In this document: positions 8,449 to 40,886 of the stretch, in pieces
Layout: every line of letters begins with the position of its first letter
Numbering within the stretch: the stretch's first letter is position 1
IMG/VR virus record: IMGVR_UViG_3300025131_000096
Location: 1-42,379 of that record
DNA length: 42,379 bases
Reading direction: 5' to 3' (one strand)
From: a virus
The notes under the pieces: model-generated
What the model saw: the letters and a program-made list of their open reading frames with translations, nothing else
Told to the model about the DNA's origin: nothing
The model's database searches: none
Translations under genes and position numbers: made by a program

Positions 8449-8700
8449 ATGGCATCAAACAGACCGAGAAGAAATTTCATACCCCCAGATCGAAAGGATG
8501 TACCCCTATCATTCGGGGCTGCATACTTGACTAAGCCACAGCAAAAGGCTTGCATTGAACTAGCCTTGGCTCGGTATCACGATTCGTTTGCCACCCTTTT
8601 TCGGGAAATATTGCGGGAAGCCTGTGAGCGTAGCAATATTTATTTTCCACGCACCGATCAGCAGGATTTGAGCGCGGATCAACGACGCGATGATCGATAG
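8449..8700 (+). CDS. Small basic unknown protein (83 aa)
   Basis: First gene of the replication operon, starting right at the predicted transcription start. Arg/Lys-rich N-terminus, central helical ACIELALARYHDSFATLFREILREA, polar tail. It could be a small DNA-binding or replication accessory protein, but no motif proves it. The 3' end overlaps the PrimPol start by 11 bases. Confidence 0.65.
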   Translation: MASNRPRRNFIPPDRKDVPLSFGAAYLTKPQQKACIELALARYHDSFATLFREILREACERSNIYFPRTDQQDLSADQRRDDR

Positions 8701-10324: not shown

Positions 10325-10569
10325 CCCGACTGCAATACAGTTGGTTGCAAGCGGAGAGTGGGGTTCCCCGATACGAGGTCTGGGATCAGGCTCGTAGCTA
10401 CAACTCGCGGGAAGCAGATGCCGATTACTGTTGGGTGCTGGCGGGGCAATACTCCAACAAGAGAAAGGCGATCAAACACGCCAGAACCTATGCGATGGGT
10501 GCGCCTGTTTACGTCTGGGATAGACTCAGGGCTGAAGTTGTGTGGCAAAATTGGGAGGTTCCACGTTGA
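10321..10569 (+). CDS. Small aromatic-rich unknown protein (82 aa)
   Basis: GTG start in a GTGA overlap with the PrimPol stop. Rich in Trp and Tyr, with a basic NKRKAIKHARTYAM helix. The stop overlaps the TTG start of the helicase gene. Function unknown; its place between primase and helicase suggests a replication accessory role. Confidence 0.65.
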   Translation: MTRLQYSWLQAESGVPRYEVWDQARSYNSREADADYCWVLAGQYSNKRKAIKHARTYAMGAPVYVWDRLRAEVVWQNWEVPR

Positions 10570-11702
10570 GCTATACCGATGAACGGTTGAGTATCCTAAG
10601 TGCAGGGCCAGGGTCAGGGAAAACAACGTCGCTCGTTAAAGACGCGGCGGGATGGCCTGAAAAAAGTTGTATCGTAACGTACACTAGAGATGCGGCGGCG
10701 GAGCTAAGTAGGCGAGGCGTGACTTGCCCGACAGGAACCGTCCACTCCTTGACATGGCCTCATGTTAAACACATCGCAAAGTTATTTAAGCGGGGTCACC
10801 GCTCAACTAGTGCGTTCAAGCGCAGACGAATTCGTAACTCGTGCGACCCAGCCCTAAACGAGTGGGTTCGCAATGCGCCGAGCAACTTCCCTGAAGACAT
10901 AGAAATTCGCCAGCTTATGGGCTGGTCACCTGACCAAGGTCGAGCACCATCTTGGATTTGGGAACGCGAGATCTCCGCCCAACAATCCTATACCGTGGCT
11001 CTTGCAAGGTGGCTGGACAAGGGTGCGCCAAGGGGCGATGACCCTGAGGCACTTTGGGATTTAGATTTTCTCGCTGTAGATGAAGCGCAAGATACCAGCG
11101 CGTTAATTTTATCTGCCGCTATGGCCTTGCTCGGTAGCGAGGGAAAATGTTTATGTGTTGGCGATCCAGGTCAAGCAATTTTCCACGAGGCAAACGGAGG
11201 CAATGAAGATGAACTGCCTCCCGCATGGCAATGGGCAACAGATCATCACGTTCTTAGTCAAGGGTTTCGCTGTGGCTTTCCTGTTGCAGATGCGGCGGCA
11301 AATATCCTACGCACCTACACCGAGGTTAACCCCGACGATTTCAGAGCCTCGCATCGCACGGAAATTGTTACCTGGAATCCATCTGCCATACCGATGTCGG
11401 GCGGCATGGTGCTGGGGCATTCGCGAAGGAGTTGTGAAAACACAATCCGAGCTTGGGGACTACAGGATGTTTCGGTTACCCCCGCCACTCGCAGAGACGA
11501 GAACGAATTGTCCATATCAACCATCCACGCGGCTAAAGGTACTCAATCTGAATCGGTTTTCGTATTACCTTGGTCAAGAAATAGTATGCGAAAACTGCGT
11601 CATCGGGACGCATCCGCCGTCAAGCTGCTGTATGTAGCGATGACCCGTGCCTCACGGAAATTACACCTACCCCTAGAAATATTTCTAGAGTTGTCTTGGT
11701 AG
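10566..11702 (+). CDS. UvrD/Rep-type superfamily 1 DNA helicase (378 aa)
   Basis: The best start is the TTG at 10566, overlapping the previous TGA and preceded by GGGAGG seven bases upstream; the frame is open from a GTG at 10542. SF1 motifs in order: Walker A GPGSGKTT (residues 14-21), motif Ia/Ib region, motif II VDEAQD, motif III VGDPGQAIF, motif IV QGFRCGFPVADAA, motif V STIHAAKGTQSE, motif VI LYVAMTRAS. At under 400 residues it is much shorter than UvrD (about 720) and lacks large 1B/2B insertions. It probably unwinds DNA for the phage replisome. Confidence 0.85.
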   Translation: MSYTDERLSILSAGPGSGKTTSLVKDAAGWPEKSCIVTYTRDAAAELSRRGVTCPTGTVHSLTWPHVKHIAKLFKRGHRSTSAFKRRRIRNSCDPALNEWVRNAPSNFPEDIEIRQLMGWSPDQGRAPSWIWEREISAQQSYTVALARWLDKGAPRGDDPEALWDLDFLAVDEAQDTSALILSAAMALLGSEGKCLCVGDPGQAIFHEANGGNEDELPPAWQWATDHHVLSQGFRCGFPVADAAANILRTYTEVNPDDFRASHRTEIVTWNPSAIPMSGGMVLGHSRRSCENTIRAWGLQDVSVTPATRRDENELSISTIHAAKGTQSESVFVLPWSRNSMRKLRHRDASAVKLLYVAMTRASRKLHLPLEIFLELSW

Positions 11703-11723
11703 CCCCGAAGAAATGGTTATAGT
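11696..11723 (+). promoter_or_regulatory. Putative sigma70-type promoter, leaderless
   Basis: TTGGTA (11696-11701), 16-base spacer, TATAGT (11718-11723), then seven bases to the ATG at 11731. It resembles the other near-leaderless promoters but with a weaker -35. Confidence 0.5.
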
Positions 11724-11730
11724 GAGTAGC

Positions 11731-11958
11731 ATGGCGAGACAAATAGAGGACGATGCTGTTGCGTATATGCGCTTCAAGACATACGATGACGGCCCCATTG
11801 ACCTGTATCTACAACATACAGGTAAAGGAAAAGTTTTGTTCGATCTACGCCAAAGCGACACCATAATTTCTTTTGAAGTAGATGTCATAACAACACGTGA
11901 AATTAAATCATTACTCACAAAATTCATTGAGGAGGTTAACAAAAATGAGAGTCCATGA
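11731..11958 (+). CDS. Small unknown protein (75 aa)
   Basis: The frame is open from an ATG at 11713, but the ATG at 11731 fits the promoter behind it and gives MARQIEDD. Strand-rich middle, then ISFEVDVITTREIKSLLTKFIEE. The next gene's product has a similar strand-TT-helix ending, so the two may be diverged tandem paralogues. Function unknown. Confidence 0.6.
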   Translation: MARQIEDDAVAYMRFKTYDDGPIDLYLQHTGKGKVLFDLRQSDTIISFEVDVITTREIKSLLTKFIEEVNKNESP

Positions 11959-12154
11959 GAATTTAATGCTGCACCGATTAGGTTTGGAAATCGAATTCAA
12001 AGCAACAGAGATTGACAATGTTGTTGAGTTTGAGGTTACCAATGTAACAACCTTGCCGGAAACACATGCCAAGTTGGCTAGTTATTTTGAAGACGAGATG
12101 AAGGAGGTGCTGGTGGATTTTCTGCACGATTGCAAGGACAAATGCACTCGATAG
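11945..12154 (+). CDS. Small unknown protein (69 aa)
   Basis: The open frame begins earlier, but the ATG at 11945 has GAGGAGG nine bases upstream. It overlaps the previous gene by 14 bases and the polymerase gene by 13. Contains VEFEVTNVTTLPETHAKLASYFEDE, comparable with the end of the preceding product. No function recognised. Confidence 0.65.
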   Translation: MRVHENLMLHRLGLEIEFKATEIDNVVEFEVTNVTTLPETHAKLASYFEDEMKEVLVDFLHDCKDKCTR

Positions 12155-13905
12155 ACGCGGATATTTTCTGGCCGACCCCAGCACAATTTCAAACGGTGCT
12201 GGGGCTCTACCCCCCTGATCACCATTGGGTTTCGGATACAGAAACCGATGGTCTTAAGGTCATTGGCCCAGCCTCCCGTGATCAGGCTTGGTATGCTGGC
12301 TTCAATCCTTTCGGAACTAACAAGGTTTATTGCTTTGACTGTCGCTCATCCGACTGGCGTGAAATTCGTCCGTTGATCCAGCGACTGCGATTAGTATTTC
12401 ATAACGGACGATTCGATGTTCACGCTATGGATCTCACCGATCTAGCTAGCGGGTGGCAAGACACGATGCTCTGTAAATACCGGACGAATACCAGCGCACC
12501 GAAATCGCTGGACGAGCTTGCGAAACAGTTGCGCTACCCAAAAATTCCGACACCTGATTTACTCAAGGGGCGGAAGGAAAACCAGAATCAAATTCATCTG
12601 GTATCTAAGAACGATGTCGCGAGATACATGGCGGATGACATCTTGTTCACCGCCCATCTCTGGGATACCATCAGCGAGAAGCAGAAGCAGTTATCGCTCA
12701 GGGCTATGGATCATCGGGTTGAGTATGCTGTGCAACGAATGGAAGCCAGAGGAGTTAGGCTCCTCACCACACCCCTCAAGGCTCTTGAGCGTGAGCTTGC
12801 ACCGTTGGTAGCGGAGAGTGAGGCAGTCATCCGAGACGCTGGGTACACAGGCAATCTTGCATCGCCCAAGCAGTTACAAGAGTGGCTCCAAGGCGAGCTT
12901 AAGTATGATTTTGTAGTAAATGTCTGGGATCAGAAGAAACGTAGAAAGGTACGCAAGTGGAGCACAGATTCTAAGAAGGTGCTGCAACCCTACGCTGACC
13001 GCACAGGTGACCCGCTGATAATTGCGCTGACAACTCACCGAAAGCTACTCAAAAAGAAGAAAGATTTCTGCGAACGCCTTCCTACATTCATGCAAGAAGA
13101 TGGACTTGTCCACGGTAGCATCCGAACAGCTAAGACCGTGAACACTAGGTTCTCTCACGCAAACCCAAACTTGGCACAGATCCCCAAGCGTGGCACAAAC
13201 GCAGTTGAGCGTCGATTAGCCAAGGCATTTCGATCCTGCTTCACAGGTGAAAGCGGGTGGATGTCGGGCGCAGACTATAGCCAGATGGAACTCCGCATGG
13301 CTGCGGCCTTGTCGGGGGATGAGCGGTTGCTCCAGGCATTCAACGACGGCGAAGATCCACACGCTGTAACAGCGGCGGGAACGTCAGGCAAATCTATTGA
13401 CGCATTGCCAGACGGCGAACGCGACAAGGCTAAGGCTGTGAACTTCGGGTTGCCGAATGGCATGAAGGCTGGCGGCTTGGCCGTCGAGTTGCGCTCTACC
13501 GTAGGCGATGCCCAGCGGTACATCGACAAGCACAAAAGAACCCATCCAAGATTGCATGAGTGGATGGCAGATGTGACCGACGATGCGGGTACGTCAGGCA
13601 TCACGGTTCTCCTGTCGGGTGCGGTCATGTATCACGACAGGGCAAAAAGCATTACAAACGCTGTGTCGGGTCACATCTCAGGGAACTCAGCGGATCTGAT
13701 GCGCCGCGCCCTAGTGGAGATTGATGCCCAAGGTTTGCGCCCAGTCCTGTCGGTGCATGACGAACTGGTAGGGGATGTCAAGGATCGAGGCCAGGAATAT
13801 GCTGAGATCATGCGCCACGCAGCCAACAATGCCTATCCAGGCGTTCTCAGCGACGTTGATTTTGAGACTAAGGGAGGCGAGGGGAGAACTTGGGCAGACG
13901 TATGA
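12142..13905 (+). CDS. polA-like: Family A DNA polymerase with 3'-5' exonuclease domain (587 aa)
   Basis: Start chosen at ATG 12142 with AAGGA just upstream; a TTG at 12130 is the longer option. Proofreading domain: Exo I DTE (D32, E34), Exo II HNGRFDVH, Exo III YMADD. Polymerase domain: motif A DYSQMELRMAA (D378), motif B R427-K431-F435 and motif C HDE (H539, D540). Motif B reads NFGLPNG: Asn439 stands where Pol I enzymes usually have the stacking tyrosine, while Phe435 is retained, as in dideoxy-resistant enzymes. It lacks a 5' nuclease domain, as phage polymerases of this length do. It should be the replicative polymerase. Confidence 0.92.
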   Translation: MHSIDADIFWPTPAQFQTVLGLYPPDHHWVSDTETDGLKVIGPASRDQAWYAGFNPFGTNKVYCFDCRSSDWREIRPLIQRLRLVFHNGRFDVHAMDLTDLASGWQDTMLCKYRTNTSAPKSLDELAKQLRYPKIPTPDLLKGRKENQNQIHLVSKNDVARYMADDILFTAHLWDTISEKQKQLSLRAMDHRVEYAVQRMEARGVRLLTTPLKALERELAPLVAESEAVIRDAGYTGNLASPKQLQEWLQGELKYDFVVNVWDQKKRRKVRKWSTDSKKVLQPYADRTGDPLIIALTTHRKLLKKKKDFCERLPTFMQEDGLVHGSIRTAKTVNTRFSHANPNLAQIPKRGTNAVERRLAKAFRSCFTGESGWMSGADYSQMELRMAAALSGDERLLQAFNDGEDPHAVTAAGTSGKSIDALPDGERDKAKAVNFGLPNGMKAGGLAVELRSTVGDAQRYIDKHKRTHPRLHEWMADVTDDAGTSGITVLLSGAVMYHDRAKSITNAVSGHISGNSADLMRRALVEIDAQGLRPVLSVHDELVGDVKDRGQEYAEIMRHAANNAYPGVLSDVDFETKGGEGRTWADV

Positions 13906-16893: not shown

Positions 16894-17613
16894 CTAGACC
16901 CGCACAAAATTGGGAAAGGGACTGTGGTTTTGCTCGGAGTCATAGTAGGTAAACCCGAGCGTCCAAGGCGGTTTCCGCCCGTTAATGAAATCGAACGCGG
17001 CCTTCCTGATGTCTCCGCCATAGCCGCCTTCAGCACCATAGACCTGTCGGCCCCCAACCTTGAGAACCTGGAGGCCCATCTTGTGCGTGTGGCCGATGTG
17101 TATGTTACAACCGTGTTCCGTTGCGAACTTATAGGCAACTCCACCTGCGAATTTACTTCCGCCGAGTCGGCCTTCGTGTCCGTGATAGATAGCCACCTTT
17201 TGTCCTTGCCCACAGGGAACCTTGAGCCCTGGTTTGACGCGCTTGATGTCGAGGTCTTGAAGACCCACATACCGATCCCAATCTAATCCTATGTTACGCA
17301 TGACCGGAGCTCGGCCTTGAACATAGGTAGACCAGCGCACTTCATGGTTACCTTCAAGGTAGCTAACATCACAACCTTTAGGGGATCGTTTGCTAATTCT
17401 AGCTAGCCACACTCTGAGCGCATTAAGCTCTCTCTCAAGCGCATCCTCCCATCGAGGATTTCTTCGGTGCTGTGAGAGAGAGTGCATATCTGCGATGTCT
17501 CCATTTAAGACAATTTTCTCAGGGCGTTCTTTTCGTATGAACTCAAAGAGTTTTATGTCCCACTTGCGACTTTGAAATGGAACGTGTACATCCCCAATTA
17601 CTAAGGTCTTCAA
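16894..17613 (-). CDS. Calcineurin-like metallophosphoesterase (239 aa)
   Basis: All five metal-binding signatures are present: GDVH (D8, H10), GDIAD (D39), GNHE (N89, H90), HGH (H144, H146) and GHTH (H175, H177). The start is a TTG at 17613 with AGGGGG about six bases upstream, just after the preceding stop. Such enzymes in phages act as phosphodiesterases or nucleotidases; with RuvC downstream, a nuclease role like that of SbcD/Mre11 is possible, but no capping domain is visible. Confidence 0.88.
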   Translation of the reverse strand: MKTLVIGDVHVPFQSRKWDIKLFEFIRKERPEKIVLNGDIADMHSLSQHRRNPRWEDALERELNALRVWLARISKRSPKGCDVSYLEGNHEVRWSTYVQGRAPVMRNIGLDWDRYVGLQDLDIKRVKPGLKVPCGQGQKVAIYHGHEGRLGGSKFAGGVAYKFATEHGCNIHIGHTHKMGLQVLKVGGRQVYGAEGGYGGDIRKAAFDFINGRKPPWTLGFTYYDSEQNHSPFPNFVRV

Positions 17614-26257: not shown

Positions 26258-29200
26258 TTACTGTTCCAAATCGTGCATTAAATTAATGCGATCAAGTTTT
26301 GCTGCTTCAGCTTTGCGGTTACGTATTCTTGCGCGAATCCAACGCCCTCGGGATGCGCCTTGATGGCGAACATCTGCAAGAGCACCTATATCTATGAAGG
26401 TAGAAGAACTGGCTGTGCGAGATCCTGGTACGGAATCGCCATCTAGTGCAATCTGAAAGCCTGTACCAGAAAGAATACCTGTCTTAAGGGTAGTCTGTGA
26501 GATGTCGTGGCCTACAGGATTTTCGTACCAGCCCGTGTCATACAAGAAGCCTTCTTCGCCTATGCCCAGTTCAACATCAACAGTCCCATCTTCTAGGCTA
26601 ACAAGCGAATCGGTTGTCGTTAATGCGCCTCCTGTATACCCAGTTACGGTAGTGTATATCGAAGCTCCTTCCGAATCGACTACTAGAACTCTTGTTCCAG
26701 TTGGCGCATTCGGATTTGTCATAGTGAGCGTATTCCCCGACAAAGAACCTGTAGAACTTTCGTCCGTATTAGCATTTAAATCGTCCCCAACAATCGTGGA
26801 GTTCTTTAAGGAATAACTTCCAGAGCCTAAGTGAACAACACCAAAGCCTGAACTAAGATCGCCAACACTTAATGCATCACGATCTTCGATAGTCCAACGC
26901 TGACTCGGGAAGTAAAAACGCAAAGTCTCGCCTGTATCTTCGTTGATGACATACAAGCTAGCATTAATACTACTTACCGATAACCTGCCATTCGTCGGAA
27001 GTTTGTCGATAATCGGAGCACCGAAATCTTCAGCCGCAGGTGCGCTAAGTCCTGAAGGAGGAGTTACTCGCCAAAGAGCACCGTCTCCAAGGACGTAGAC
27101 AGATCCTGCATAGGTAGTCACAGCCCTCGCGGATTGCGCTCCAACTCCACCCAGGTAATAGGGTCTGGGGCTTTCGGAACTTCCAGTTAAAATAGTTCCC
27201 CAGTCTGCGCCAAACACAGCCAAAGAATTTGCGTAGGGTATTGCTGCTACGATATCCGATAAACCTTGATTAGGTACATGATATTGGGAAGCAGACTCAA
27301 AGGATTCCCATCCAAATGGGCCTTGAGCTCCTAATGAAATTATGCCGTCTTTGAATACACCTAACCTATCATCCCAAGTAAAGATGCCGTCAGGTCTGCT
27401 AGGTACAAAACCGGACGATTCGCTAATCACATTCCCCAAGGTATCTTCGTGAATGTTGTCGATAAAACTTGCTTCGCCTATCGGAATTCGCGCCAGAAAT
27501 CTCAGAGGATTTCCTTCTACGTTTGTCAGAGCCTTAGTTATCTCTTGCTCATCCCGCTCGTCTGAAATGCCGATGCGCTTAGTTCTGAAGAGTTCGATAG
27601 CCGTAATATAGGGATACGCGGCATCTGGAAACGACACAGCCGGAGCCGGATTGTCAATGTCCTCATCGTCAATTGTACGCGCATCAAAGATTTCGGGATT
27701 GGGTGTTGACCATGATCCTCCTGGCCCCTTCTTCTCAAAGTTTCCTGATACTAAGCCCCAGTTTTTAAATGTACCATCTACCGGATCATTCTCGTCGAAA
27801 GGCTGGAACTTGGCGAAGTAATGCAAGTTCAACACTTCATTACTATCTTGCCTTGCGCGTGTATCTAGGTAGTCATAATTCTCCCACTCGTCTTGGTATC
27901 GGTTGCCTTGCCACATGCGAAATTCTCCGATCCAAGTATCCGCAGTATTGGTTACATCTTTAAAGCCCCCGAGGTAGATAATAAATTTAGCTTTTTCTAG
28001 CGTATTATCTTTTGGGCTATCCATCGAGAACGCCATTATTTCCTGACCGTTTAGCGCATAGTCCTTTAGAGTTATATCAAAGTCAGAGCCAACAGTTGTC
28101 ATAACTGTAGAGATAGTATACCAGTTAAAATTTTCGGCATCCACGTTTAGGCCACCTAATTTTAACTCGTCAAAAGATATGACACGTTCCGAGAAAGGAT
28201 TCCATAACTCTGATACAATCGTGAAAGATTCTTCGCCTGTTGAGAGTGTGACCGAGCCATCACCTAACGGACTTGCGTATAACTGGATCTCAGCATTCTT
28301 TGCAGCAGTTTCATCTGTATCTGTAACCATTAGAGCATACTGAACATCCCCCAGAGTTTTAGTCTGCTCGAAATATGACCTTGCAGGATTACTTACTTTT
28401 GCAGTAGTATTATCTCCTTCATAGCAACTCCAGTAGACTTTAGCCGCCCGATCCCAAAACTTATCTGGTTTATCGTAAATATCGTCTGTAATAAAAGCCA
28501 CATCAGAAACTAATCCGTGATCAAAACCAGGCTCTGTTTTAGTAGCAAACCGCATTTCAAAGTGCGTTTTAATTGCGTCTTTAGATACTGCTGTTTCCCA
28601 AGCTCTCGCATGATACCAATGAGTATTTTCTGATAGTCCTCCTACATATTCCGACGCGTCGTTATCATCCTCGTCATTATTACCATGCCCTCCTGTGGCA
28701 GTTACACCCTTAAACTGTTCATCCATATGATTAGCAGTTCCGTTCCCTGTTTCTCCAAAACCTGATGAACCCCAATGAAGAAGTCTTTGATCCGCGTCAT
28801 ATCCTCCATTATTTGAATTAAAGAATGAGTCTAAAGCCTGTCCATTGGTAGCTTCAGAAGGAAGTGTGTCGTAGGAATGCCACACATCCGCAGTAACGTC
28901 GTGTACGTGTATCCTAAGTGCGTTACCCTTACGAGTTACAACTACTGTATAGTTTTGACCAGTTGTCCACTCAAAATCCCCGCCGCTACCATCATCGATA
29001 GTTCCGATTCTATAGTATGGCAATCTATATCTTCTATTTACTGATCGCGCCACAACTAGACGAAAATCTGTATCATTGCCCCAACCATGCCCCTTGTAAA
29101 GCATGACTTGAAAAGCTGGAAGCCAAGGCTGAAGATCATTAGGGCCAACTGAAAAAAGACATTGAGTATGAGTAACCGAATCGGCTAATGTCGAACTGTC

Positions 29201-31351
29201 AAACTTGAATGAAAATCCTATAGTAAAATCTTTTGTGGTATCCAACTCTAGGCCCGCTCGATATGCAACCCAAGCACATCCCTTGCTACTTGTAGTTCTG
29301 TTCTGAGAGTATCGATCAAATACACTTTCCTCGTAGTCGTTGAAACCTGGGAACGCCGCAAAAACCTCTACCGAATTTCCGTGGACATTACTATCTCCTG
29401 GATTATCATCATCGAAGAGGAAATAGTTTTCAACACCATCGTGGGTAAGACCGTAAGATGCGCCGAGCTCAGTTTTACCTGAATCCTCGTCCCCCTCTTT
29501 TGTTGTACCTAAAACTACTTTAGTTCCACCAAGAGCTTTAACAGGCTTAAGCCGTCTAATGGGGCCATAAGTACCATCCCCTGAAGCAAATCGTGCGCCG
29601 TACTGGTAGACGCCGTCAAGAATTCCGCTTGAACGTATATTTCTAACCGAAACTTCTTGTCCAATCTCGGGCAATCCAAGAGGGCGTAACTTGTTTCTCC
29701 GGACATCCGCAACACAGAGAGCACCATCAGGCTCGTTAAGGAATAATTTATCTCCTAACTTAAGCCCTGTTGCAGCCTTTGAAAAGATACCGTCCTCTGC
29801 TCTGAGAGTAGACGTTGCGCCTATAACACCCGCCGGAACTAAAACTTCACCTGCTAGAATAGCTTTATGGTCTGCGTCTTGGACTGGGCCTGGGGCGATG
29901 GAGGGTAATGCGGAGGTTGGTGCGTGTGTTTCTAATGCTAATGCAATATTAAATGCGCTGACATCTTCAACAGAATCTGCTCGGTGCTGGAGGTCAAAGA
30001 TCGCCTCGCCGTCATCCGAAGTTGCCGCGTAATCAAATATCGAAAATCCTAAAAGAGATCCGTGGAAATTGGTATCATTTTCTTTGTCTTCATCTGCGCC
30101 AATGAAGAGGTCAGGGATTCGTCTATGGTCAATAAAGGGCAACTCAGTCCCTGCTGCTGAGGTAGTAGCAGTATCTGTGCCGTTATAGATAAATAGATTC
30201 GTGCCGTCACAACCTACCCAAACAGTAGTTTCAGTGTTTAGATCCGAATGGAAATCAGCTCCAGTTTCCCATCTAGTTTGCTCTGAGTAAGTAAATAAGA
30301 GTTCGCCTGTATCTGCCTCTAATTCTAGTTTAGCAAAACCTGGAAATTCAAATAACGTAGTAGTACGTTGTTCAGTTAGAAACTCCCGCGAAAATGTAAC
30401 TTTAAATGCAAATACATTACTCGCCACACTCGATAAGTTAGATGTAAAAAATCTGTCGAATACCGAATTAAACGGTACTCTAACAGCACCCGAGAGGCCA
30501 TTAAATCTTAATTCTCCTTCGTCAAGTAAGGGCTTACTTGGATACGGTAAAGCATCCCCGATTCCGGTTGCCGGAGAGATCGGTGCTTTAGAATCGCAAT
30601 TTAATTGAATCTGAGGAGTTGTAGTCGGGGAACGACTCGCCATAGCCCAATCTTCTTCCGAAGTCGGATCTACATTTTTAAAAATATTAATAGGATCAAT
30701 TACGGTGATCGTTCCTTCAGGAGATGCTGTAGGCCCGAGGATAGAAAGCGTACAACCATTCATCGTATACGTTCCCGAAGCTAAAGTCCCATCATCTTCT
30801 GAAGCATCTACATAAAGAGTTACTTCAGGCGTTCCCATTGGCCCATCTACACGCAACGCGACTTTAATATTCGTGTCAGGTGTAGTAGGTATCGAAAGAG
30901 CGTCGACTCCAGTTAATCCTGCTACTCCGGAGTTATCGTAGATATTAGCTTTAATCGTATAGGCTCCACCCGCTTTTTCCGCCCAAATTTTAAACGTATT
31001 GTTGGCGTCCTTCGCTGCAAAATTCGCTTTCTGTTGACCTTCAATTAAATATATCTTACCTGCCGCCTCTTGAATAGAGCCTAAAGCTACCTGGAATGCA
31101 ATTGTAAAGCCGTTCGTTTGACCGGAAACATCAAGAGCATTCGTATCTAATTGCCAATAGCTACTCCCTGGTGCAGCAAAACCTGCTGCTGAAGTATATT
31201 GTGTTTGTCGTACTGAACCGACTCTACGAGTTGGAGTCTCCGATTCGGCAGGATCCGCTTCCCGAATTTCGTGTAGCGCAGGTTTTTCTGTGAGTATCCC
31301 AGGAGACACTCTACGCATAGGAAACTGATCGATGCGACTTGGATGTTTCAT
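26258..31351 (-). CDS. Giant nozzle-like tail protein with LamG-type domains (1697 aa)
   Basis: At least two and perhaps four concanavalin-like (LamG/laminin-G) segments can be read, near residues 80-210, 300-450, 700-830 and 1020-1130, each with strands such as FTIAFQVALG, FAFKVTFS and FTIGFSFKFD. The C-terminal third (from about GIFTWDDRLGVFKDG through ADWGTILTGS and YVLGDGALWRV) looks like the repeated strands of tail nozzle proteins (T7 gp12 position). It would close the tail and probably bind surface glycans. About twice the usual nozzle size of roughly 800 residues. Confidence 0.65.
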   Translation of the reverse strand: MKHPSRIDQFPMRRVSPGILTEKPALHEIREADPAESETPTRRVGSVRQTQYTSAAGFAAPGSSYWQLDTNALDVSGQTNGFTIAFQVALGSIQEAAGKIYLIEGQQKANFAAKDANNTFKIWAEKAGGAYTIKANIYDNSGVAGLTGVDALSIPTTPDTNIKVALRVDGPMGTPEVTLYVDASEDDGTLASGTYTMNGCTLSILGPTASPEGTITVIDPINIFKNVDPTSEEDWAMASRSPTTTPQIQLNCDSKAPISPATGIGDALPYPSKPLLDEGELRFNGLSGAVRVPFNSVFDRFFTSNLSSVASNVFAFKVTFSREFLTEQRTTTLFEFPGFAKLELEADTGELLFTYSEQTRWETGADFHSDLNTETTVWVGCDGTNLFIYNGTDTATTSAAGTELPFIDHRRIPDLFIGADEDKENDTNFHGSLLGFSIFDYAATSDDGEAIFDLQHRADSVEDVSAFNIALALETHAPTSALPSIAPGPVQDADHKAILAGEVLVPAGVIGATSTLRAEDGIFSKAATGLKLGDKLFLNEPDGALCVADVRRNKLRPLGLPEIGQEVSVRNIRSSGILDGVYQYGARFASGDGTYGPIRRLKPVKALGGTKVVLGTTKEGDEDSGKTELGASYGLTHDGVENYFLFDDDNPGDSNVHGNSVEVFAAFPGFNDYEESVFDRYSQNRTTSSKGCAWVAYRAGLELDTTKDFTIGFSFKFDSSTLADSVTHTQCLFSVGPNDLQPWLPAFQVMLYKGHGWGNDTDFRLVVARSVNRRYRLPYYRIGTIDDGSGGDFEWTTGQNYTVVVTRKGNALRIHVHDVTADVWHSYDTLPSEATNGQALDSFFNSNNGGYDADQRLLHWGSSGFGETGNGTANHMDEQFKGVTATGGHGNNDEDDNDASEYVGGLSENTHWYHARAWETAVSKDAIKTHFEMRFATKTEPGFDHGLVSDVAFITDDIYDKPDKFWDRAAKVYWSCYEGDNTTAKVSNPARSYFEQTKTLGDVQYALMVTDTDETAAKNAEIQLYASPLGDGSVTLSTGEESFTIVSELWNPFSERVISFDELKLGGLNVDAENFNWYTISTVMTTVGSDFDITLKDYALNGQEIMAFSMDSPKDNTLEKAKFIIYLGGFKDVTNTADTWIGEFRMWQGNRYQDEWENYDYLDTRARQDSNEVLNLHYFAKFQPFDENDPVDGTFKNWGLVSGNFEKKGPGGSWSTPNPEIFDARTIDDEDIDNPAPAVSFPDAAYPYITAIELFRTKRIGISDERDEQEITKALTNVEGNPLRFLARIPIGEASFIDNIHEDTLGNVISESSGFVPSRPDGIFTWDDRLGVFKDGIISLGAQGPFGWESFESASQYHVPNQGLSDIVAAIPYANSLAVFGADWGTILTGSSESPRPYYLGGVGAQSARAVTTYAGSVYVLGDGALWRVTPPSGLSAPAAEDFGAPIIDKLPTNGRLSVSSINASLYVINEDTGETLRFYFPSQRWTIEDRDALSVGDLSSGFGVVHLGSGSYSLKNSTIVGDDLNANTDESSTGSLSGNTLTMTNPNAPTGTRVLVVDSEGASIYTTVTGYTGGALTTTDSLVSLEDGTVDVELGIGEEGFLYDTGWYENPVGHDISQTTLKTGILSGTGFQIALDGDSVPGSRTASSSTFIDIGALADVRHQGASRGRWIRARIRNRKAEAAKLDRINLMHDLEQ

Positions 31352-32719: not shown

Positions 32720-33958
32720 CTATGCGTCCTTAAAACGGTCTGACATTACGAATGAACGACGCCCGTTATCCAAAGACCAGCATGATCTCGCATGTAGTCG
32801 TTTGAACAACCAAGTATCTTGCTCTGCAACCTGGAAATCAGAGATCGGCTCTAGCCATTTGCCTGTAGCAGCATCGCCGCCGTAGACCATGTTAAAGCGC
32901 AAAGAACTCCAGTTAATCCCCATGATTGGGTGTGTAGCAACAGGTGTAACATCCGAAGTACAGTCCCATCCAGCATGCGCTGTAAGGAAATGGTGGAAAT
33001 CCAACATTGTCCCTGCGATAGGAATTTCAGTAGTAGTTGCCAAGTTTCCTAGTAGGGCGTCATTAATTTGACCCTTACTTCGCATATACTTGAGAACCTC
33101 TTCGTACATTTCAGGAGTTACCATCCAGTCCGTAACCATCTCACCCGCTCCGTAGCGGGAAACTGCGATGATATACTTCTGGAGGTACTCGTAAACATCT
33201 TGGCCGTTATTAGCATTGAATGCTGTTTTACCGCCGTTATCGTTGTCTACAGCATCAAAATAAGGCTCCCATTTAGGGGCATTCTCCTGAGATATTCCCA
33301 TGAATGTCTCAGTCTCCTTATTGCCGTATTGAGATCCACCTGCTGGCCCTCGATTATTATCAACTCCTGAAATGAACAAACCTAACAGAGAGAAAGAGGG
33401 CATGTCAGCGTAATCTGATCCACCTCCAAAATTTGCGTCCGTTAAATGTGGCGCAAGTGCTACAGGGGCAGCAACATCCGTAGCTCCTCCAAGTACAGCA
33501 TAAGCCTCTTCTTCTTGGAAGAATTCAGCCATGTGCCGTTCAAGTAGTCCTGCAACAGTATCGATGCCTTGCTGTACTGGACGCCGTAGCAAATCCTCAG
33601 GTATCACAAAGTTACTTGCAACATCTAGGATGCTTGAACGCGCAGTTGACCAAATGCCGTTTTGCGTGAGTGCCAAACTGGAGGCAGAACCCATCGCCTG
33701 AGAACCAGCGACTTCTCTAGAGCCCCTGTAGTATTTCCAGGCACTACCTTCTCCTCCTGTTGCTCCTGTAGTCAAGAGGTGCTCTACGTAATCCGCATCA
33801 TTCACAGAGAATACGCGGCCACGTTCGGCAGCTTTACGGTAGAATTTTTCGCCTCGGTCATTTACTAACCAAGCCGGATCTGAGGTCATTGTGTTAATGG
33901 TACTGAGGACAAGAGAGTCCAGCAGTTCCGTGGTAGTTCGCGTGAGCGGGAGAGCCAT
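32720..33958 (-). CDS. Major capsid protein, HK97-type (412 aa)
   Basis: About 410 residues with an N-terminal helix (RTTTELLDSLVLSTINTM), an extended arm, a helical spine segment near VIPEDLLRRPVQQGIDTVAGLLERHMAEFF, a variable loop rich in Asn/Gly and a strand-rich C-terminus. It follows the scaffold gene by two bases, the standard scaffold-capsid order. The HK97 fold is inferred from this organisation rather than a sequence hit. Confidence 0.75.
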   Translation of the reverse strand: MALPLTRTTTELLDSLVLSTINTMTSDPAWLVNDRGEKFYRKAAERGRVFSVNDADYVEHLLTTGATGGEGSAWKYYRGSREVAGSQAMGSASSLALTQNGIWSTARSSILDVASNFVIPEDLLRRPVQQGIDTVAGLLERHMAEFFQEEEAYAVLGGATDVAAPVALAPHLTDANFGGGSDYADMPSFSLLGLFISGVDNNRGPAGGSQYGNKETETFMGISQENAPKWEPYFDAVDNDNGGKTAFNANNGQDVYEYLQKYIIAVSRYGAGEMVTDWMVTPEMYEEVLKYMRSKGQINDALLGNLATTTEIPIAGTMLDFHHFLTAHAGWDCTSDVTPVATHPIMGINWSSLRFNMVYGGDAATGKWLEPISDFQVAEQDTWLFKRLHARSCWSLDNGRRSFVMSDRFKDA

Positions 33959-33960
33959 TT

Positions 33961-34641
33961 TTAAGTGCGCCTATTGCGCTTCGAGTGTTGTTCTAAAACT
34001 TTCTGGGCATTTTCTGCGATACGACGTTTCATCTCCTGCTTATTTTTAGGGGCTCCTTCTTCCGTAGTCGGAATGAATAATTGAGGGACTGAGGTGTCAT
34101 AACTTGAAGTAGCTTCAGATTGCTGTGGAGCAAGTCCAGCCGCATGTACTAAATAAATGACTCCCTTCTTATCGAGGAGCATCTTATTAGTATAGCGTCC
34201 AGATTCCAAGCCATCTTTGTACTCTGCAAAAATTTGCTTGCCTTCATCAGAGTTGGCAGCGATGCCTTCCTCTTGAAGCCAGTTATGAATGTTCAGTTTT
34301 GCTGTAGCCTTAACTTCAGCTAACTCAACTTCCCGAGCAACAATCTCTTGGATTTGATCAGGATTTTGGTAGCCTTTTGCTTTAAGGTCAGCTTCTCGTT
34401 TATCATCCCACTTACGGTGTGCACCATCGAGGGCTTGCCCAATCATGCTTTCAACTTTTTTCATTTGATCAGCAGTAAAATCTTGGGCTAATTCAGCCTT
34501 TGTCTGGGCCGGAGTCTCAACACCATCTGCCGCCGCGTCTGCAAGTGTACCTATAGGCTCTTGAGAGGGTTCGATAGAGGTAGGTGTAGGAGTAGTTTCG
34601 TTCGTATCTTCAGTCATTTTGGGTGTACCTATGGCTCCCAT
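33961..34641 (-). CDS. Capsid scaffolding protein (226 aa)
   Basis: Charged, Gln/Glu/Lys-rich helical protein with a disordered Thr/Pro-rich N-terminus and a basic C-terminus (MKRRIAENAQKVLEQHSKRNRRT), typical of phage scaffolds whose basic helical tail contacts the capsid protein. Directly precedes the capsid gene. A start at M9 (34617) is equally possible because neither ATG has a strong ribosome site. Confidence 0.75.
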   Translation of the reverse strand: MGAIGTPKMTEDTNETTPTPTSIEPSQEPIGTLADAAADGVETPAQTKAELAQDFTADQMKKVESMIGQALDGAHRKWDDKREADLKAKGYQNPDQIQEIVAREVELAEVKATAKLNIHNWLQEEGIAANSDEGKQIFAEYKDGLESGRYTNKMLLDKKGVIYLVHAAGLAPQQSEATSSYDTSVPQLFIPTTEEGAPKNKQEMKRRIAENAQKVLEQHSKRNRRT

Positions 34642-34651
34642 GCATTAGAGT

Positions 34652-35098
34652 TTACCCTTGGCTCTCTTCATGCGGTTTAAGAAATCGAGGAGGTTGTTTA
34701 TCCCAGGTGGTCACACCATCCTCGTTAAGGTTAGTCTTTTTTAATTTGGTTTCAAAGTCGCGCAGACTATAAGCTGTGCGATTCTCTGGATCTCCCTCGC
34801 GAGGGAGTGCAAACATCTCAAATCCATTAGCCCATTCACCACTACCTGTGCGGCTAGGACGGGCGGCTTGAGCGTCGTTTAACCAGATATCTCGGTCTTC
34901 GAGATACTGGGTGAATTCAATTTCGGCTTTAGAGTTTCTGGGCGGGGCTGATATTTTACTTTCACATTTCTGACAAGTCCACTCAGGATACTCTACCGCA
35001 CCTGTAAATTTACATGTAGTACAGGTGTGTAATGTACGTAAGCCTTGGTCAATAAGCCAGCCAACATACGGATCGCCAAAACGCGGAAGGTTAAACAT
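34652..35098 (-). CDS. Zinc-ribbon virion-operon protein (148 aa)
   Basis: CTTC near residue 27 and CQKC near residue 42 form a zinc ribbon, followed by a charged region. Overlaps the upstream gene by eight bases and precedes the scaffold. A zinc ribbon between portal and scaffold genes is unusual; the role is unknown. Confidence 0.65.
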   Translation of the reverse strand: MFNLPRFGDPYVGWLIDQGLRTLHTCTTCKFTGAVEYPEWTCQKCESKISAPPRNSKAEIEFTQYLEDRDIWLNDAQAARPSRTGSGEWANGFEMFALPREGDPENRTAYSLRDFETKLKKTNLNEDGVTTWDKQPPRFLKPHEESQG

Positions 35099-35507
35099 TA
35101 GAAGGATGTGCCTCGATTAGAATGTTGTACTCTGCATTATCCGGAGCAGAACCAGATTGCTTTAAACGAAGAAGATCAGGAGGATTAGAGATAGTTACAG
35201 AGTCCATCACGCCAGTAGTAACTTCAATAGTAATCGTAGTTCCTATATCATTCCACGTACCGTCTGGATTACCTGCCTGGATTTCATATACTCCAGAATT
35301 ACTTGTAGGTGCAACCTCCACGGTTCCAAGATGAAATGTGGCCGAAACACATCGTCCAATTTCAACTCCCTCCGTGATGGTGTCACCCTCCTCAACAGCT
35401 TCAAAGCGAAACCATTTAACCCCGCCAGAATTAAAGGCAGCAGTATCGTCACCAGATGCTGTTCTCCAGGCTCCGTTTAAAAGTTTTTGGTGGGTAGCAG
35501 TAGTCAT
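35091..35507 (-). CDS. Beta-rich small virion protein (138 aa)
   Basis: Strand-rich with two WF/VTV-type alternating segments (VKWFRFEAVEEGD, TTITIEVTTG) and a single cysteine. A head decoration or Ig-like protein is plausible from composition and location. No specific family recognised. Confidence 0.55.
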   Translation of the reverse strand: MTTATHQKLLNGAWRTASGDDTAAFNSGGVKWFRFEAVEEGDTITEGVEIGRCVSATFHLGTVEVAPTSNSGVYEIQAGNPDGTWNDIGTTITIEVTTGVMDSVTISNPPDLLRLKQSGSAPDNAEYNILIEAHPSNV

Positions 35508-35519
35508 TATTCCAAGTGT

Positions 35520-37355
35520 TTAGGGCTCAAAGACAGTAACAGTGTCAGGGTGAAGGGGCAGCACAATGCGGCTGGGGTAGGTTTCACCGTGGTACAAGGT
35601 TACGGTGTTGTTGTCGAAACAGGGGTGGCAGCGCACAGGATTGTCTCCATTAACCTGAGGAACATCAAAGCGGGTGTAGTTGGCGAACTGCACACGTAAA
35701 AGGTTAGTGCTGCCGCCTCCAGGTAGGTGCATGGCCTTGAGACTAAACTCCAGACACACCTTGCGAATGTCCCCCGCGACATAACTTTCAGGGAAGGCAT
35801 ACCATGTATCTGCCACATCAATCCAGTTTGATCCGGTGTCAGCCGAGTACTGGATTTTCGCGTAGACCTGAGCCCCAGCCTGAGACGCACTAAGCCAGAA
35901 ATGCCCTTGAGCGACACCTAGGTACGTGGACTCTTTTAACGGGGAAGTGGATGCTGTTATAACCTTCTGGAAGTCGTTGGTATCGTAGGTTATACGGGAG
36001 CTATAGTACGAATCTATGTTCGTAGAACTTACACCACCCGCTATTGCGGTACTTACGTCCTCGGGAGTAGTGGCGGTTCCCCATGTGTTGGTGATGGTAG
36101 TAGTCCAGTCCGACCCAGAAGGTTCTGCGGCAACTAGTGCTGTTTCGCCAATCCAAAGCTGCGTGGGTATCGAGGTAACCGCTGTGGCATCCTCATCCCC
36201 AAACCGCCGAAGCCAGTGCATCTTCTCGGCTGTAACTCGCACCCAGGAGTAGGAGGTATCCGTATAGGGAGGTGGATCCTCGTCCGCGTAGTCGGTGGCG
36301 TTGTTAGGGGTAATAAGCATCTCAACCTTAGGACAGGCTGTGGGAGAACTATTACCAAAATTCGTTGCTAGGACATCCTCATTCTTGAGGTAGTATCGGA
36401 AAAAGTGCAACTGCTTGGCTCTCATCCGGATCTCCTCCCCATCCACCTCTGTAGACGCATGACCGCCTGACGCACCGAACACACCAAAAGCGTTTTCCCT
36501 GTGGGAGAGTAGGTCAATAAGCGCGTTGGGCGGAGCCCAGTGATCGTCGCAGTCCAGGATAGCTAGTATAGGGAAGTCTCTAGGAAGACGCTCTCCTAAC
36601 TCGTCAACATTGGGGTAGCGGTTTAGTAGGGTATCTCTGTTATCTGAGGATACGGTGCGCCCTGTAACAACCGATTTAAGTTGGTAGGCATCTCCAGTGT
36701 CCAGGGTATCTTGTAAAAGTTGCAGGTTGGTGGCAAGGTGTGTCTTAATGGCTGTCTGATCCTTATAGCCGTCCCAGATGTACCCGCAAAACGTCGGTGT
36801 TCTCTCCCCTATAAGGTCTCGGGCAGGAGCGGTGATGGCGTCTTGGCGGCGCGGGAGGAAAGCCCTGGGGGAAATCGCTGAAATCTTAGGCATGGGCATC
36901 CCGCCGATAAGTGTACGATCTTCCCCTAGACCACTCATAAGCCATGTAAGAGCACCCCCTGCACTGGTTCCCGACAGCCCAATCTTACTAAACTCAATGT
37001 ACGAGGAGTAGTTCGCGTTGACGTAGTGCATAAGCTCTACAATGTCCTTCATATCCCGCCGACAGTACAGACCCCATCCGTACTCAGAGTTAGTATAACC
37101 ATTGTCCCCGATCCAGTCATCCCCATCTGAACCACCCCCATCTCCGTGTCCTCTGTGGTCTAATGTGACACAAGTAAACCCATTATCACGGGCGGCTTGT
37201 GCCGAGTCCGCAGCACTGGAGCGGTTGCCCCCTGCCCCGTGGAAGAAAAACAATAAAGGTACTTGACCAGAGGCGTCATCGTAATAAATATTGTACTCCA
37301 TTACATACCCATCGGACATGGTAATGGTTTGAGCTTCGCTATTTACTGTAGCCAT
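35520..37355 (-). CDS. Alpha/beta hydrolase with C-terminal beta domain, CocE/NonD-like (611 aa)
   Basis: N-terminal alpha/beta hydrolase: oxyanion HGAGGN (39-44), nucleophile elbow GTSAGG with Ser131, acid candidate among D268/D270/D271 in LAILDCDDHW, and His299 in GASGGHAST, in the canonical order. The last ~250 residues are strand-rich (YLGVAQGHFWLSAS, AQVYAKIQYS), like the jelly-roll of CocE/X-Pro dipeptidyl-peptidase relatives. These families cleave esters or prolyl peptides. The gene sits between portal and the capsid block, so the enzyme is probably a virion component or made late. It lacks a signal peptide. Hydrolases of this kind are not normal parts of this operon. Confidence 0.8.
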   Translation of the reverse strand: MATVNSEAQTITMSDGYVMEYNIYYDDASGQVPLLFFFHGAGGNRSSAADSAQAARDNGFTCVTLDHRGHGDGGGSDGDDWIGDNGYTNSEYGWGLYCRRDMKDIVELMHYVNANYSSYIEFSKIGLSGTSAGGALTWLMSGLGEDRTLIGGMPMPKISAISPRAFLPRRQDAITAPARDLIGERTPTFCGYIWDGYKDQTAIKTHLATNLQLLQDTLDTGDAYQLKSVVTGRTVSSDNRDTLLNRYPNVDELGERLPRDFPILAILDCDDHWAPPNALIDLLSHRENAFGVFGASGGHASTEVDGEEIRMRAKQLHFFRYYLKNEDVLATNFGNSSPTACPKVEMLITPNNATDYADEDPPPYTDTSYSWVRVTAEKMHWLRRFGDEDATAVTSIPTQLWIGETALVAAEPSGSDWTTTITNTWGTATTPEDVSTAIAGGVSSTNIDSYYSSRITYDTNDFQKVITASTSPLKESTYLGVAQGHFWLSASQAGAQVYAKIQYSADTGSNWIDVADTWYAFPESYVAGDIRKVCLEFSLKAMHLPGGGSTNLLRVQFANYTRFDVPQVNGDNPVRCHPCFDNNTVTLYHGETYPSRIVLPLHPDTVTVFEP

Positions 37356-37356
37356 T

Positions 37357-39147
37357 TTAAACTATGGGGATGTCTTCTGTGCCGAGGAATGGTGTACTCT
37401 GTGCTCCCTGCGTTTGGATGCCACCTGCGGGGGCCAATAAAGCGTTCTTCTGTGCAACTTGTTGGTGCTGTACGATAGCAGCGGAAATAGCTAGTATTAG
37501 TTCTGTGTTAGACTGCGGCGTCTCAGCTAGCTTCTGTGAATAATACGCGATAAACTGATCAGGCGGATCTTGTTCTAGAACAGAGATTGCCGCCGTCTTA
37601 CCTGAGATGTAGTCAAATAACCGATCCTGAGGGCCACCCGATGCCAAACTTAATTCAAGGTATTGTGCGATGTCCCGTGCACCTGTGGCCCAGAGGAGTC
37701 GGCGTAGTGACTCTACGATAACTGGAGGCGCACCATTTGGAAACTGGGCTAATGTATTTGTAACAAGAGAAGTGGCTGCGGCATAAGTTTCTCGCTGGCC
37801 TTGTTGCGATAAATTCCCTAGTTCAACTGCATCTACCCTGAAAGACATGAGTGCGCTTTCGGGATCAGGTATGTCGTATATCTTCGACAGACCTGAAGGA
37901 AGCGGGATCTCTAGTGCCTCACCCCACATCTCCCGCTGATAAGAAAATGTAACGTGAGCAGCCGAAGCAAAAAGCTCCGCCATAACAGAAAGTCGATCCT
38001 TAGTTCTGCGGTTACCCGCGTTAGATAATATCGAAGCCTCGGCAGCAGATTTTCTTGGGCCTATCTGCATACCTCTGTCTAGAGCGTTAGATCCAATTAC
38101 ATCATCTAGTAATCGTATGTATTGTTCCAGAGCCGCGAAAAGTTCAGCAAGCGCAGAGTTTCTCTCGACAGGCCGCATCTTGTGCGATACACCCGTATCG
38201 GCTGTATCCGCTAATCCTGTTTTAACAGGTACGTATATCGTATCGCCTGTCTGATTGTCTCGTACTTCTTTGATGTAATCTTCTGTAAGAGCTTCTTCAT
38301 CGTAAAGTATTACATTGTTAATGCTTCCAACTTCCTTAGTGATAGCGTGTAAAGTATCGTGGATGTCATTTATGAGAGGGATCCAAGACAATACTTCAGA
38401 AGGACTGATGTCTTCCCCTGGCGCAGGGTCAAGGAACGAGCGGATAATTAAAGGACACGCGCCTGATAACTTAACGCGAGATACGGGCATTCCGATGCCA
38501 GTATTCGACTTACCTTTATCCGAGCCGAGCTCGTAGGTAACCTTCGTACATTTGTTGTGCGCCGTAGGCCAGAAAACTTCGGTCTGGATTACCTTGTCCG
38601 TGGGATCCTCAGGATTGGCAATCGAAAAGGTTCGCCAGAAACAACGCCTTAGTCCTGGCTCGTAACCACACTCAACATGGCTAAGAGCTTTGTACTTAAA
38701 CCGCTCGTGAGGCGGGGCGGATTTGTCTGTGTCTACGTAGAGCCCGACATGCGTCCCCATCGGCCCATAGAGCGCACACTTCCGTGCAGCCTCCTTGAGT
38801 CCCCCGTGCCGCCCAGCCCAAAGCATCAATGTGTTCTGGTCTTCGGTAGCTCGGGCCGCTTCCCCTGAAAGAGCCTCAACCTGAAAGACAGGTAGGGCTG
38901 GAGAAGCCTCGATTGCCGCTTGGCGGAGGCGTGTCTGGAATAGGTTTGCACCTACGTCCGGATACAGCCAAGGAATAGAAACTGATTCAGGATTAAAATA
39001 TACGGCTGTAACCGTATGATCCCGCCCCGCATAGAGCGCATTTACACGCTCCGTGACGTACTGAGCCGCAGAGTCGAGCTTTTTCTTAGATTCTGTAACG
39101 ATCTGCTGGATCGCAGCATCGTCCGGAGCAGGATAGTAGCGAGTCAC
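37357..39147 (-). CDS. Portal protein (596 aa)
   Basis: Length and layout fit podovirus portals: an N-terminal helical region, a middle with the LIRSF...WIPLINDIHDTLHAITKEVGSINNVI stretch, a QIGPRKSAAEASILSNAGNRRTKDRLSVMAE helix and a Gln-rich C-terminus. Located one gene after the terminase. It begins with GTG at 39147, only nine bases behind a -10 box and with no properly spaced Shine-Dalgarno sequence. Confidence 0.8.
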   Translation of the reverse strand: MTRYYPAPDDAAIQQIVTESKKKLDSAAQYVTERVNALYAGRDHTVTAVYFNPESVSIPWLYPDVGANLFQTRLRQAAIEASPALPVFQVEALSGEAARATEDQNTLMLWAGRHGGLKEAARKCALYGPMGTHVGLYVDTDKSAPPHERFKYKALSHVECGYEPGLRRCFWRTFSIANPEDPTDKVIQTEVFWPTAHNKCTKVTYELGSDKGKSNTGIGMPVSRVKLSGACPLIIRSFLDPAPGEDISPSEVLSWIPLINDIHDTLHAITKEVGSINNVILYDEEALTEDYIKEVRDNQTGDTIYVPVKTGLADTADTGVSHKMRPVERNSALAELFAALEQYIRLLDDVIGSNALDRGMQIGPRKSAAEASILSNAGNRRTKDRLSVMAELFASAAHVTFSYQREMWGEALEIPLPSGLSKIYDIPDPESALMSFRVDAVELGNLSQQGQRETYAAATSLVTNTLAQFPNGAPPVIVESLRRLLWATGARDIAQYLELSLASGGPQDRLFDYISGKTAAISVLEQDPPDQFIAYYSQKLAETPQSNTELILAISAAIVQHQQVAQKNALLAPAGGIQTQGAQSTPFLGTEDIPIV

Positions 39148-39188: not shown

Positions 39189-40886
39189 CTAACGCCGCCT
39201 TTTGTGCCTCATAGGAGGAGGTTTCCAGTAGGGTGAGTCAGGGCCAGGAGACGCGACTTTTTCAGCCTCGATCCCTGGAACCGCGCCTCGCTTCATAATA
39301 AAGTTAGTGAGAAGCGCGAATGCATCTGGAAGATCGTCCGATTCCGACTTAGGGAATTCCGAAAGTCTCTTGAGCAGGATGTCTCGCCCAGGGAATTTAC
39401 CTGGGAAGAAGATACGATTCTCTGCCATCCCTACTTGAATACCCTGTAGTCGCTGTTGCTTCTTAGCCCGACTTTTTAAATTGATCGGAACAAAACGAAC
39501 TTTCCTAGCCCAATGCTGTTGGTGCGCCCAGGCACGTAGGGCATCACAAGACATTGTGTTCTCAACCCACAGAGCAGCAATATCCTCAGAGTTCTCGTAG
39601 ATAAGATCAGCCACGTACTCCATACACTCTGCAATCTGCCCTCGGATTTCTCGTGCTTGGACTGGAAAAAAGATGTTCGTGTCGGGGGGCATGTCGGCAA
39701 TGCCTGGGATCTCTAGTCCTGGAATACCTATACAACGCTCTGCGGTTGTGACATGTACGAGGATGATACCGTTCCAATCCCCAATCTTGGCATCCGCACG
39801 AGAAGTTGGATCCCAAAGAATAATCTTCCGGCCCTTAGGTAGATTCTCTGGAAGAATATCAAAGAGCGTAGACTCTCTAAGACGTTTGTCCGGAAAGAGT
39901 GCATACGCCGCCGCGACAGGTTGCACGAGGTACTGCTGGCTCCAGAACTCTGGATCATCAATGCGATCCTCCGCAGCAAGTAATTCTAAGTCGGACATGA
40001 AGTCCGGACAGAGTGCGTATGCGCCGTTCGGCCCCCGCCCCTTCTTATCCGCAATACCCGTATTCGGATTCACGCCATCCCAACAACCAAACCGATATTG
40101 TGACCACTCTTCGCTGTGCTCCCCAATCCAGGCCGAGAGATCGTAGAAAGCCCAAGGAGTTCCGATGTGTCGGATGTTACCTGACGGATCTCGGAGGATC
40201 GGCTCAAGCTGCTTAAAGGACTGAATGACTTTCTCGCGCTGGACTGGGGTTGTCGAGTTGCGTTCATTCGACGGGTCATCGACATAGATATCTGTCGGGT
40301 GCTTACCCGCTTTGTTTGAGCCAATCGAACTAGGGAAGAAGCAAGGCTCCCGCCCCATCCCCTGTCTACCTACCGTATTAAAGGATCCTGGCGGAGAACC
40401 TGGAGAAGCGCGGCACGGAACAAGCTGGGGAAACGCCGCCGAGAACGGAACAAGTACAGGGGGTTCCTTGCCCTGGGCCGGAATGATCTCAACCATGTTC
40501 TCGGCATTGCACATGTTCCGCATCTCACCTAAGATCTCGTTCGCAAGTTGCGTAGCCGCCGACACATACATCGTTCGCTTCTCTGGGTCACGCCATTTCT
40601 CCCAGAGCGCGATATCCATCAGCAAGGTTGTCTTGCCGTGGTTCCGCGATACAATCGTACTCGTCCTGTTGGTACTGAGGGCGTTCGCTGTTATTTCTCG
40701 ATGCAACCTAGAGAACTGCTTCCGCCTAACGGGGGGAGAACCAGGTTGGGCTGTCAGGATTCCCCGATGACCTATAGCATGCCCAAACGCTACAGGATCT
40801 TCAAGAAGTCTTAGGATAGCATCAAAAAGCTCAGAAGACTTCTCGATGTCGCGCTCAGAAAGTATTCGCCAAGGAGAAGGAGTCAC
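39189..40886 (-). CDS. terL: Terminase large subunit (565 aa)
   Basis: ATPase: Walker A-like VSRNHGKTT (79-87) and Walker B DIYVDDP (D203, D204). Nuclease: IILWDPTS (D358), LWVENTMS near residue 437 and DLPDAFALL near the C-terminus, the three acidic sites of the RNase H-like packaging nuclease. It cuts and pumps concatemeric DNA into the prohead through the portal encoded next. GTG start four bases after the previous stop, without a clear ribosome site. No small-terminase gene is recognised nearby. Confidence 0.92.
   Translation of the reverse strand: MTPSPWRILSERDIEKSSELFDAILRLLEDPVAFGHAIGHRGILTAQPGSPPVRRKQFSRLHREITANALSTNRTSTIVSRNHGKTTLLMDIALWEKWRDPEKRTMYVSAATQLANEILGEMRNMCNAENMVEIIPAQGKEPPVLVPFSAAFPQLVPCRASPGSPPGSFNTVGRQGMGREPCFFPSSIGSNKAGKHPTDIYVDDPSNERNSTTPVQREKVIQSFKQLEPILRDPSGNIRHIGTPWAFYDLSAWIGEHSEEWSQYRFGCWDGVNPNTGIADKKGRGPNGAYALCPDFMSDLELLAAEDRIDDPEFWSQQYLVQPVAAAYALFPDKRLRESTLFDILPENLPKGRKIILWDPTSRADAKIGDWNGIILVHVTTAERCIGIPGLEIPGIADMPPDTNIFFPVQAREIRGQIAECMEYVADLIYENSEDIAALWVENTMSCDALRAWAHQQHWARKVRFVPINLKSRAKKQQRLQGIQVGMAENRIFFPGKFPGRDILLKRLSEFPKSESDDLPDAFALLTNFIMKRGAVPGIEAEKVASPGPDSPYWKPPPMRHKRRR

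Follow-up and report, generated by a model that had tools for sequence, protein, structure and literature searches.

An alpha/beta hydrolase gene in an exchangeable slot just behind the portal gene of an uncultured phage: possible virion cargo acting at entry

The gene described here belongs to an uncultured virus of bacteria recorded in IMG/VR, and the window, i.e., the whole stretch of DNA analyzed, comprises its 42,379 b. The late operon runs on the minus strand in the order 258-aa protein, terminase large subunit (TerL), portal, hydrolase, 138-aa protein, CxxC protein, scaffold-like protein, and capsid-like protein (Table 1), which places the hydrolase between the portal and scaffold/capsid genes, as the preliminary description of this DNA had stated. 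The closest isolate match of TerL, and the sole one, was found in Anabaena phage A-4L at 25% identity. The hydrolase reading frame begins 1 nt past the portal stop codon, and promoters and terminators around it were no more numerous than in shuffled sequences.

Table 1. Features of the window and content of the post-portal slot in related contigs
Feature	Location	Strand	Length	Basis or remark
GP88-like protein	window 1463-2077			PF17338, E 5.9e-28
Replication module	window 8690-13905			Prim-Pol primase, UvrD-like helicase, family A DNA polymerase
Calcineurin-like phosphoesterase	window 16894-17613			PF00149, E 9.3e-09
1697-aa protein	window 26258-31351		1697 aa	Conserved in relatives at this position (L006, L008: over 1260 aa); no family match; probably a tail or head-tail structure
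Capsid-like protein	window 32720-33958	minus	412 aa	Kept beside scaffold in relatives
Scaffold-like protein	window 33961-34641	minus	226 aa	Position and size
CxxC (zinc-ribbon-like) protein	window 34652-35098	minus	148 aa	Core gene of the family
138-aa protein	window 35091-35507	minus	138 aa	Matches 136-142 aa proteins of certain relatives in place and size
Hydrolase	window 35520-37355	minus	611 aa	ORF intact; catalytic domain ~1-330, beta-rich CocE-like region ~340-611
Portal	window 37357-39147	minus	596 aa	Position and homology; 39-42% identical to relatives' gene
TerL	window 39189-40886	minus	565 aa	phrog_38, E 6.8e-41
Slot, window and sister L002				611-aa hydrolase and 138-aa protein
138-aa gene of L002	L002 5554-5967			91.5% nt identity to window
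Capsid gene of L002	L002 7103-8332			87.7% nt identity to window
Slot, L012			first 108 aa	Hydrolase 39% identical to window's; cut by contig end
Slot, L083, L084, L085			322-329 aa	S9/DLH-type hydrolases, above Pfam cut-offs
Slot, L029			311 aa	S9/DLH-type hydrolase, above Pfam cut-offs
Slot, L074/L073			257 aa	Phage_lysozyme, above cut-off
Slot, L109	L109 2103-4241		713 aa	Lysozyme-like region homologous to L074 protein, 8e-18
Slot, L044	L044 4970-6682		571 aa	Lysozyme-like by weak similarity only, E 0.005
Slot, L060			162 aa	Unclassified
Slot, L061/L063/L126				Unclassified
Slot, L023/L068	L068 10526-14098		1191 aa	Unclassified; starts further from portal
S9/DLH-type hydrolase of T7-like phage	L094 7618-8586			Directly after capsid gene; 80% identical to L083's
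Zincin-like HExxH small protein	L132 8770-9168			LLHEIAHVWD; between portal and scaffold; distant relative
Zincin-like HExxH small protein	L137 4202-4504			LLHEVIHVID; between portal and scaffold; distant relative

A sister contig, 98% identical, has the hydrolase reading frame intact as well. Residues 1-330 scored above the curated cut-offs of two alpha/beta hydrolase superfamily profiles in Pfam, Abhydrolase_6 (PF12697; 29.3 bits against 26.3) and Abhydrolase_1 (PF00561; 28.1 bits against 25.8). By motif reading, a GxSxG nucleophile elbow (GTSAG, i.e., G129-T-S131-A-G133), an Asp motif (DCDDHWAP, i.e., D-C-D-D271-H-W-A-P), and a His motif (G-G-H299) follow one another in canonical order, with Ser131, Asp271, and His299 as the predicted triad, and the N-terminus carries no hydrophobic leader. 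In these respects, the earlier account of a complete Ser-Asp-His hydrolase without a signal peptide agrees with the sequence. The phage esterase/lipase profile phrog_789 matched the catalytic N-terminus (7.7e-08), although only profile positions 329-434 of 637 are covered. The putative product would be an alpha/beta hydrolase of the serine esterase/lipase type, competent for catalysis; the only parts recognized in it are the alpha/beta hydrolase domain and the beta-rich region. No direct homologs were found in isolated phages and plasmids, and a first scan of genome contigs returned no relative. Between the window and L002, the hydrolase showed a dN/dS of 0.53 over few changes, which is weak evidence of constraint on the window gene itself.

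The preliminary description had also assigned a CocE/NonD-like beta domain to the C-terminal region, and this part of it stood less firmly. The size of the protein (611 aa) and the succession of an alpha/beta domain and a beta region resemble CocE/NonD enzymes (TIGR00976; S15 plus PepX_C), but the protein scored 24.3 bits against a TIGR00976 cut-off of 66.3, PF08530 (PepX_C) gave no match on its sequence, PF02129 reached E 0.07 at best, and its nucleophile reads GTSAG versus GxSY. When a CocE-like tail pattern was searched in bacterial genomes, with artificial rows serving only to shape the search pattern, and candidates were then confirmed by tblastn with the real window sequence, six bacterial proteins were retained (E 4e-7 to 2e-5); Peptidase_S15 and PepX_C were present in all three of those scanned. 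The last ~150-180 residues of the hydrolase align with genuine cellular CocE/NonD proteins, and a profile of the six proteins matched it at 40 bits through residues 5-75 and, collinearly, residues 431-602, while 0 of 200 shuffles were reported at E up to 10. This score fell to 12 bits once the last 31 residues were deleted, i.e., the tail motif driving the match (YHGETYPSRIVLP), which resembles YHxxxxPSxxVLP. Because the seeds were picked via the tail, the profile match is supportive, not conclusive. AlphaFold models of the hydrolase reached a mean pLDDT of 36 from the single sequence and 43 with nine sequences including CocE relatives. The latter model resembles alpha/beta hydrolases across residues 1-347 (Z about 18), and its best whole-length Foldseek matches were PaL (8yzo) and CocE structures, a ranking that is not independent because CocE sequences sat in the input alignment. 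Altogether, a CocE/NonD reading of the C-terminal region is plausible but weak.

Most genes of the window are 98-99.7% identical to those of L002, and the capsid gene stands out from this background; the 138-aa gene, also divergent, has a dN/dS of about 1.2 (Table 1). The two genes look as if they had undergone surface-directed diversification or recombination, and the 138-aa protein could be one that partners the capsid protein at the capsid surface. A profile of the relatives' 136-142 aa proteins built without the window did not detect the 138-aa protein, which thus shares only position and size with them; a first profile had suggested homology to the proteins of L005, L006, L008, L014, and L016, and was discarded because it included the window protein. 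A CxxC profile likewise built without the window found the window protein at 1.9e-12 as well as homologs across the family, so the CxxC gene is a core family gene. The earlier view that both neighbors are atypical for this location therefore needs to be relaxed, given the core status of the one and the fact that the position of the other is often taken by small proteins. Hypervariable neighbors and a beta-rich C-terminal region would also suit a non-catalytic role, in which the hydrolase fold would decorate the head or act as an adhesin, its beta domain binding sugar or capsid; PepX_C domains typically form a carbohydrate-binding-like sandwich. We consider such a structural role improbable, given the canonical Ser, Asp, and His motifs, kept both in the window type and in the L083 and L029 proteins, and given that the S9 type is, as described below, under strong purifying selection.

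TerL and portal searches collected more than 70 related contigs. In most relatives whose contig reaches the capsid gene, the CxxC, scaffold, and capsid genes come immediately after the portal gene. While these flanking genes are constant, the slot directly after the portal gene, whose edge is marked by the portal stop codon, is variable and in most relatives empty. Hydrolases are rare within this phage family, and those of the L083 group and L029 are mutually homologous (about 4e-17). Most slot genes start between 4 nt before and 10 nt after the last portal codon, the exceptions being the 1191-aa gene and the L126 gene, whose start is uncertain; because cargo starts so near the portal end, translational coupling with the portal is likely, and hydrolase synthesis would then track that of the portal.

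As to other occupants of the slot, the large proteins of L109, L044, and L068 have no Pfam match outside the lysozyme-like region of L109 and may be multidomain ejected effectors, and the single-domain lysozyme of L074 might sit there as an endolysin that serves lysis. A transglycosylase in L126 and ADP-ribosyltransferase-like stretches in L044 and L109 were by-eye impressions that found no profile support, and a shared N-terminal packaging peptide (LSA) in L083, L029, and L074 was at chance level (E about 0.7).

A check of related phages for presence or absence of the gene at this locus, proposed in the preliminary description, gave a clean pattern. The terminase and portal DNA of L012 (3632 b) matches that of L011, L013, and L031 at 98.1-98.2% identity; this identity stops one base past the portal stop codon, where L012 runs on into the hydrolase and the CxxC gene comes next in the other three. 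A chimeric L012 assembly is unlikely because its post-portal sequence is homologous to the window hydrolase at the same site. Mapped on a quick tree of 45 portals, on which the window branch is long, hydrolase presence requires at least 4 changes, hydrolase-or-lysozyme presence at least 7, and whole slot content at least 11. These patterns bear on roles in head assembly. Many tailed phages encode a head maturation protease between portal and scaffold/capsid, just where the hydrolase lies, and S9/S15-type peptidases are alpha/beta hydrolases; yet most relatives have no such gene in the slot, and because nearly identical phages are among them, we rejected a prohead protease role as very improbable. 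Modification of a head protein, which had been put forward alongside action on the host surface, is similarly unlikely, given phages that share 98% identity in terminase and portal yet do without the gene.

A related hydrolase was found in a second phage background. Contig L094 belongs to a T7-like phage, with a T7-type terminase, a Head-tail_con portal, and a Gp10A-like capsid all above cut-offs, and carries its S9/DLH-type hydrolase immediately after the capsid gene, where the isolate Roseobacter phage CRP-125 proceeds directly to tail tubular protein A. The L083 and L094 genes differ by 145 silent codon differences and 64 with an amino-acid change; with a dN of 0.14 against a dS of about 3 (saturated), the S9-type hydrolase is under purifying selection. 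A search of 50,697 annotated phage records yielded no similar protein. As judged from these comparisons, a related hydrolase has been transferred between unrelated phage families.

We propose that the hydrolase gene is optional cargo of the exchangeable post-portal slot and encodes a virion-carried serine esterase/lipase-type enzyme acting on the host envelope at entry, a reading to which we assign a probability of roughly 45%. The enzyme would most likely ride in the virion, near the portal vertex or in the head, or be ejected with the DNA, and on entry it would cleave an ester or acyl linkage of the host envelope, its role paralleling that of the lysozyme-like cargo in sister phages. We favor virion delivery over mere late expression because lysozyme-like proteins alternate at the identical site, because, across the contig stretches examined, both phage families have the related genes in head operons and nowhere else, and because MuF genes, likewise just downstream of the portal, can carry effectors. 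The suggestion of a virion enzyme in the preliminary description thus gains from the recurrent hydrolase/lysozyme slot, the starts near the portal stop, and the apparent transfer to a T7-like capsid operon, while its head-protein variant loses ground.

Speaking against virion cargo are the rarity of the hydrolase in the family, the weak evidence of constraint on the window gene, and the chance that the L074 lysozyme is a lysis enzyme. The hydrolase also has no MuF or other packaging domain, which equally suits the main and serious rival: a late intracellular cargo (moron) enzyme that stays outside the virion, the post-portal site being a tolerated, strongly expressed insertion point. It could act on host lipids, metabolites, or receptors (superinfection exclusion), or in lysis. 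Presence/absence among near-identical phages fits any accessory gene, CocE- and DLH-type cytoplasmic enzymes are common, and the T7-like phage has its hydrolase after the capsid gene, not the portal. The confinement of related genes to head operons within the contig stretches examined and the lysozyme-like proteins in the identical slot weigh against an intracellular enzyme, which we nevertheless regard as a real possibility, somewhat short of even odds.

More broadly, and tentatively, the post-portal slot may be reserved for loading envelope enzymes that the virion delivers, with head-carried stand-alone alpha/beta hydrolases (lipases/esterases) as an alternative to virion lysozymes and able to cross phage families; we hold this to be possible but doubtful. 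If the slot does load virions, virion-borne enzymes could be predicted from a single genomic position throughout a phage group represented here by metagenomes alone, and the list of head-associated cargo, with lysozymes and MuF effectors on it, would gain alpha/beta hydrolases. A direct test is within reach, since near-identical phages exist in both forms, carrying the gene and lacking it.

Enzymes of this class are known, and so, separately, is the concept of portal-linked cargo; in the literature searched, whose coverage was incomplete, we found no description of stand-alone alpha/beta hydrolases as recurrent post-portal cargo. The nearest parallel is MuF cargo, for which SPP1 gp7 is the prototype and which in other phages lies immediately downstream of the portal in the packaging module and carries polymorphic effector domains (PMC5576092). 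The window gene, too, lies just downstream of the portal (1 nt) as exchangeable enzymatic cargo, but the cargo here is stand-alone and swapped as whole genes, whereas known MuF cargo consists mainly of toxins of temperate phages. The hydrolase is not a MuF protein, since no MuF domain (PF04233 or PF06152) matched in Pfam searches at E up to 1 for the whole protein and 10 for parts. Polyvalent, head-packaged effectors resemble the present case in being encoded near the portal with virion genes and in their lysozyme domains, which occur in portal and capsid proteins of phages (PMC5512222) and recall the slot proteins of sister phages; the window protein differs in not being a large multidomain protein with several effector domains, and the words hydrolase and lipase do not occur in the main text of that paper. 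Finally, the tailspike esterases of podophages (e.g., G7C, Moo19, and B2; PMC11654681) are encoded in tail modules, whereas the window gene stands in the head operon, unjoined to a tail protein; what they share with the proposed enzyme is a known entry strategy, an esterase in the virion directed against a host surface polymer.
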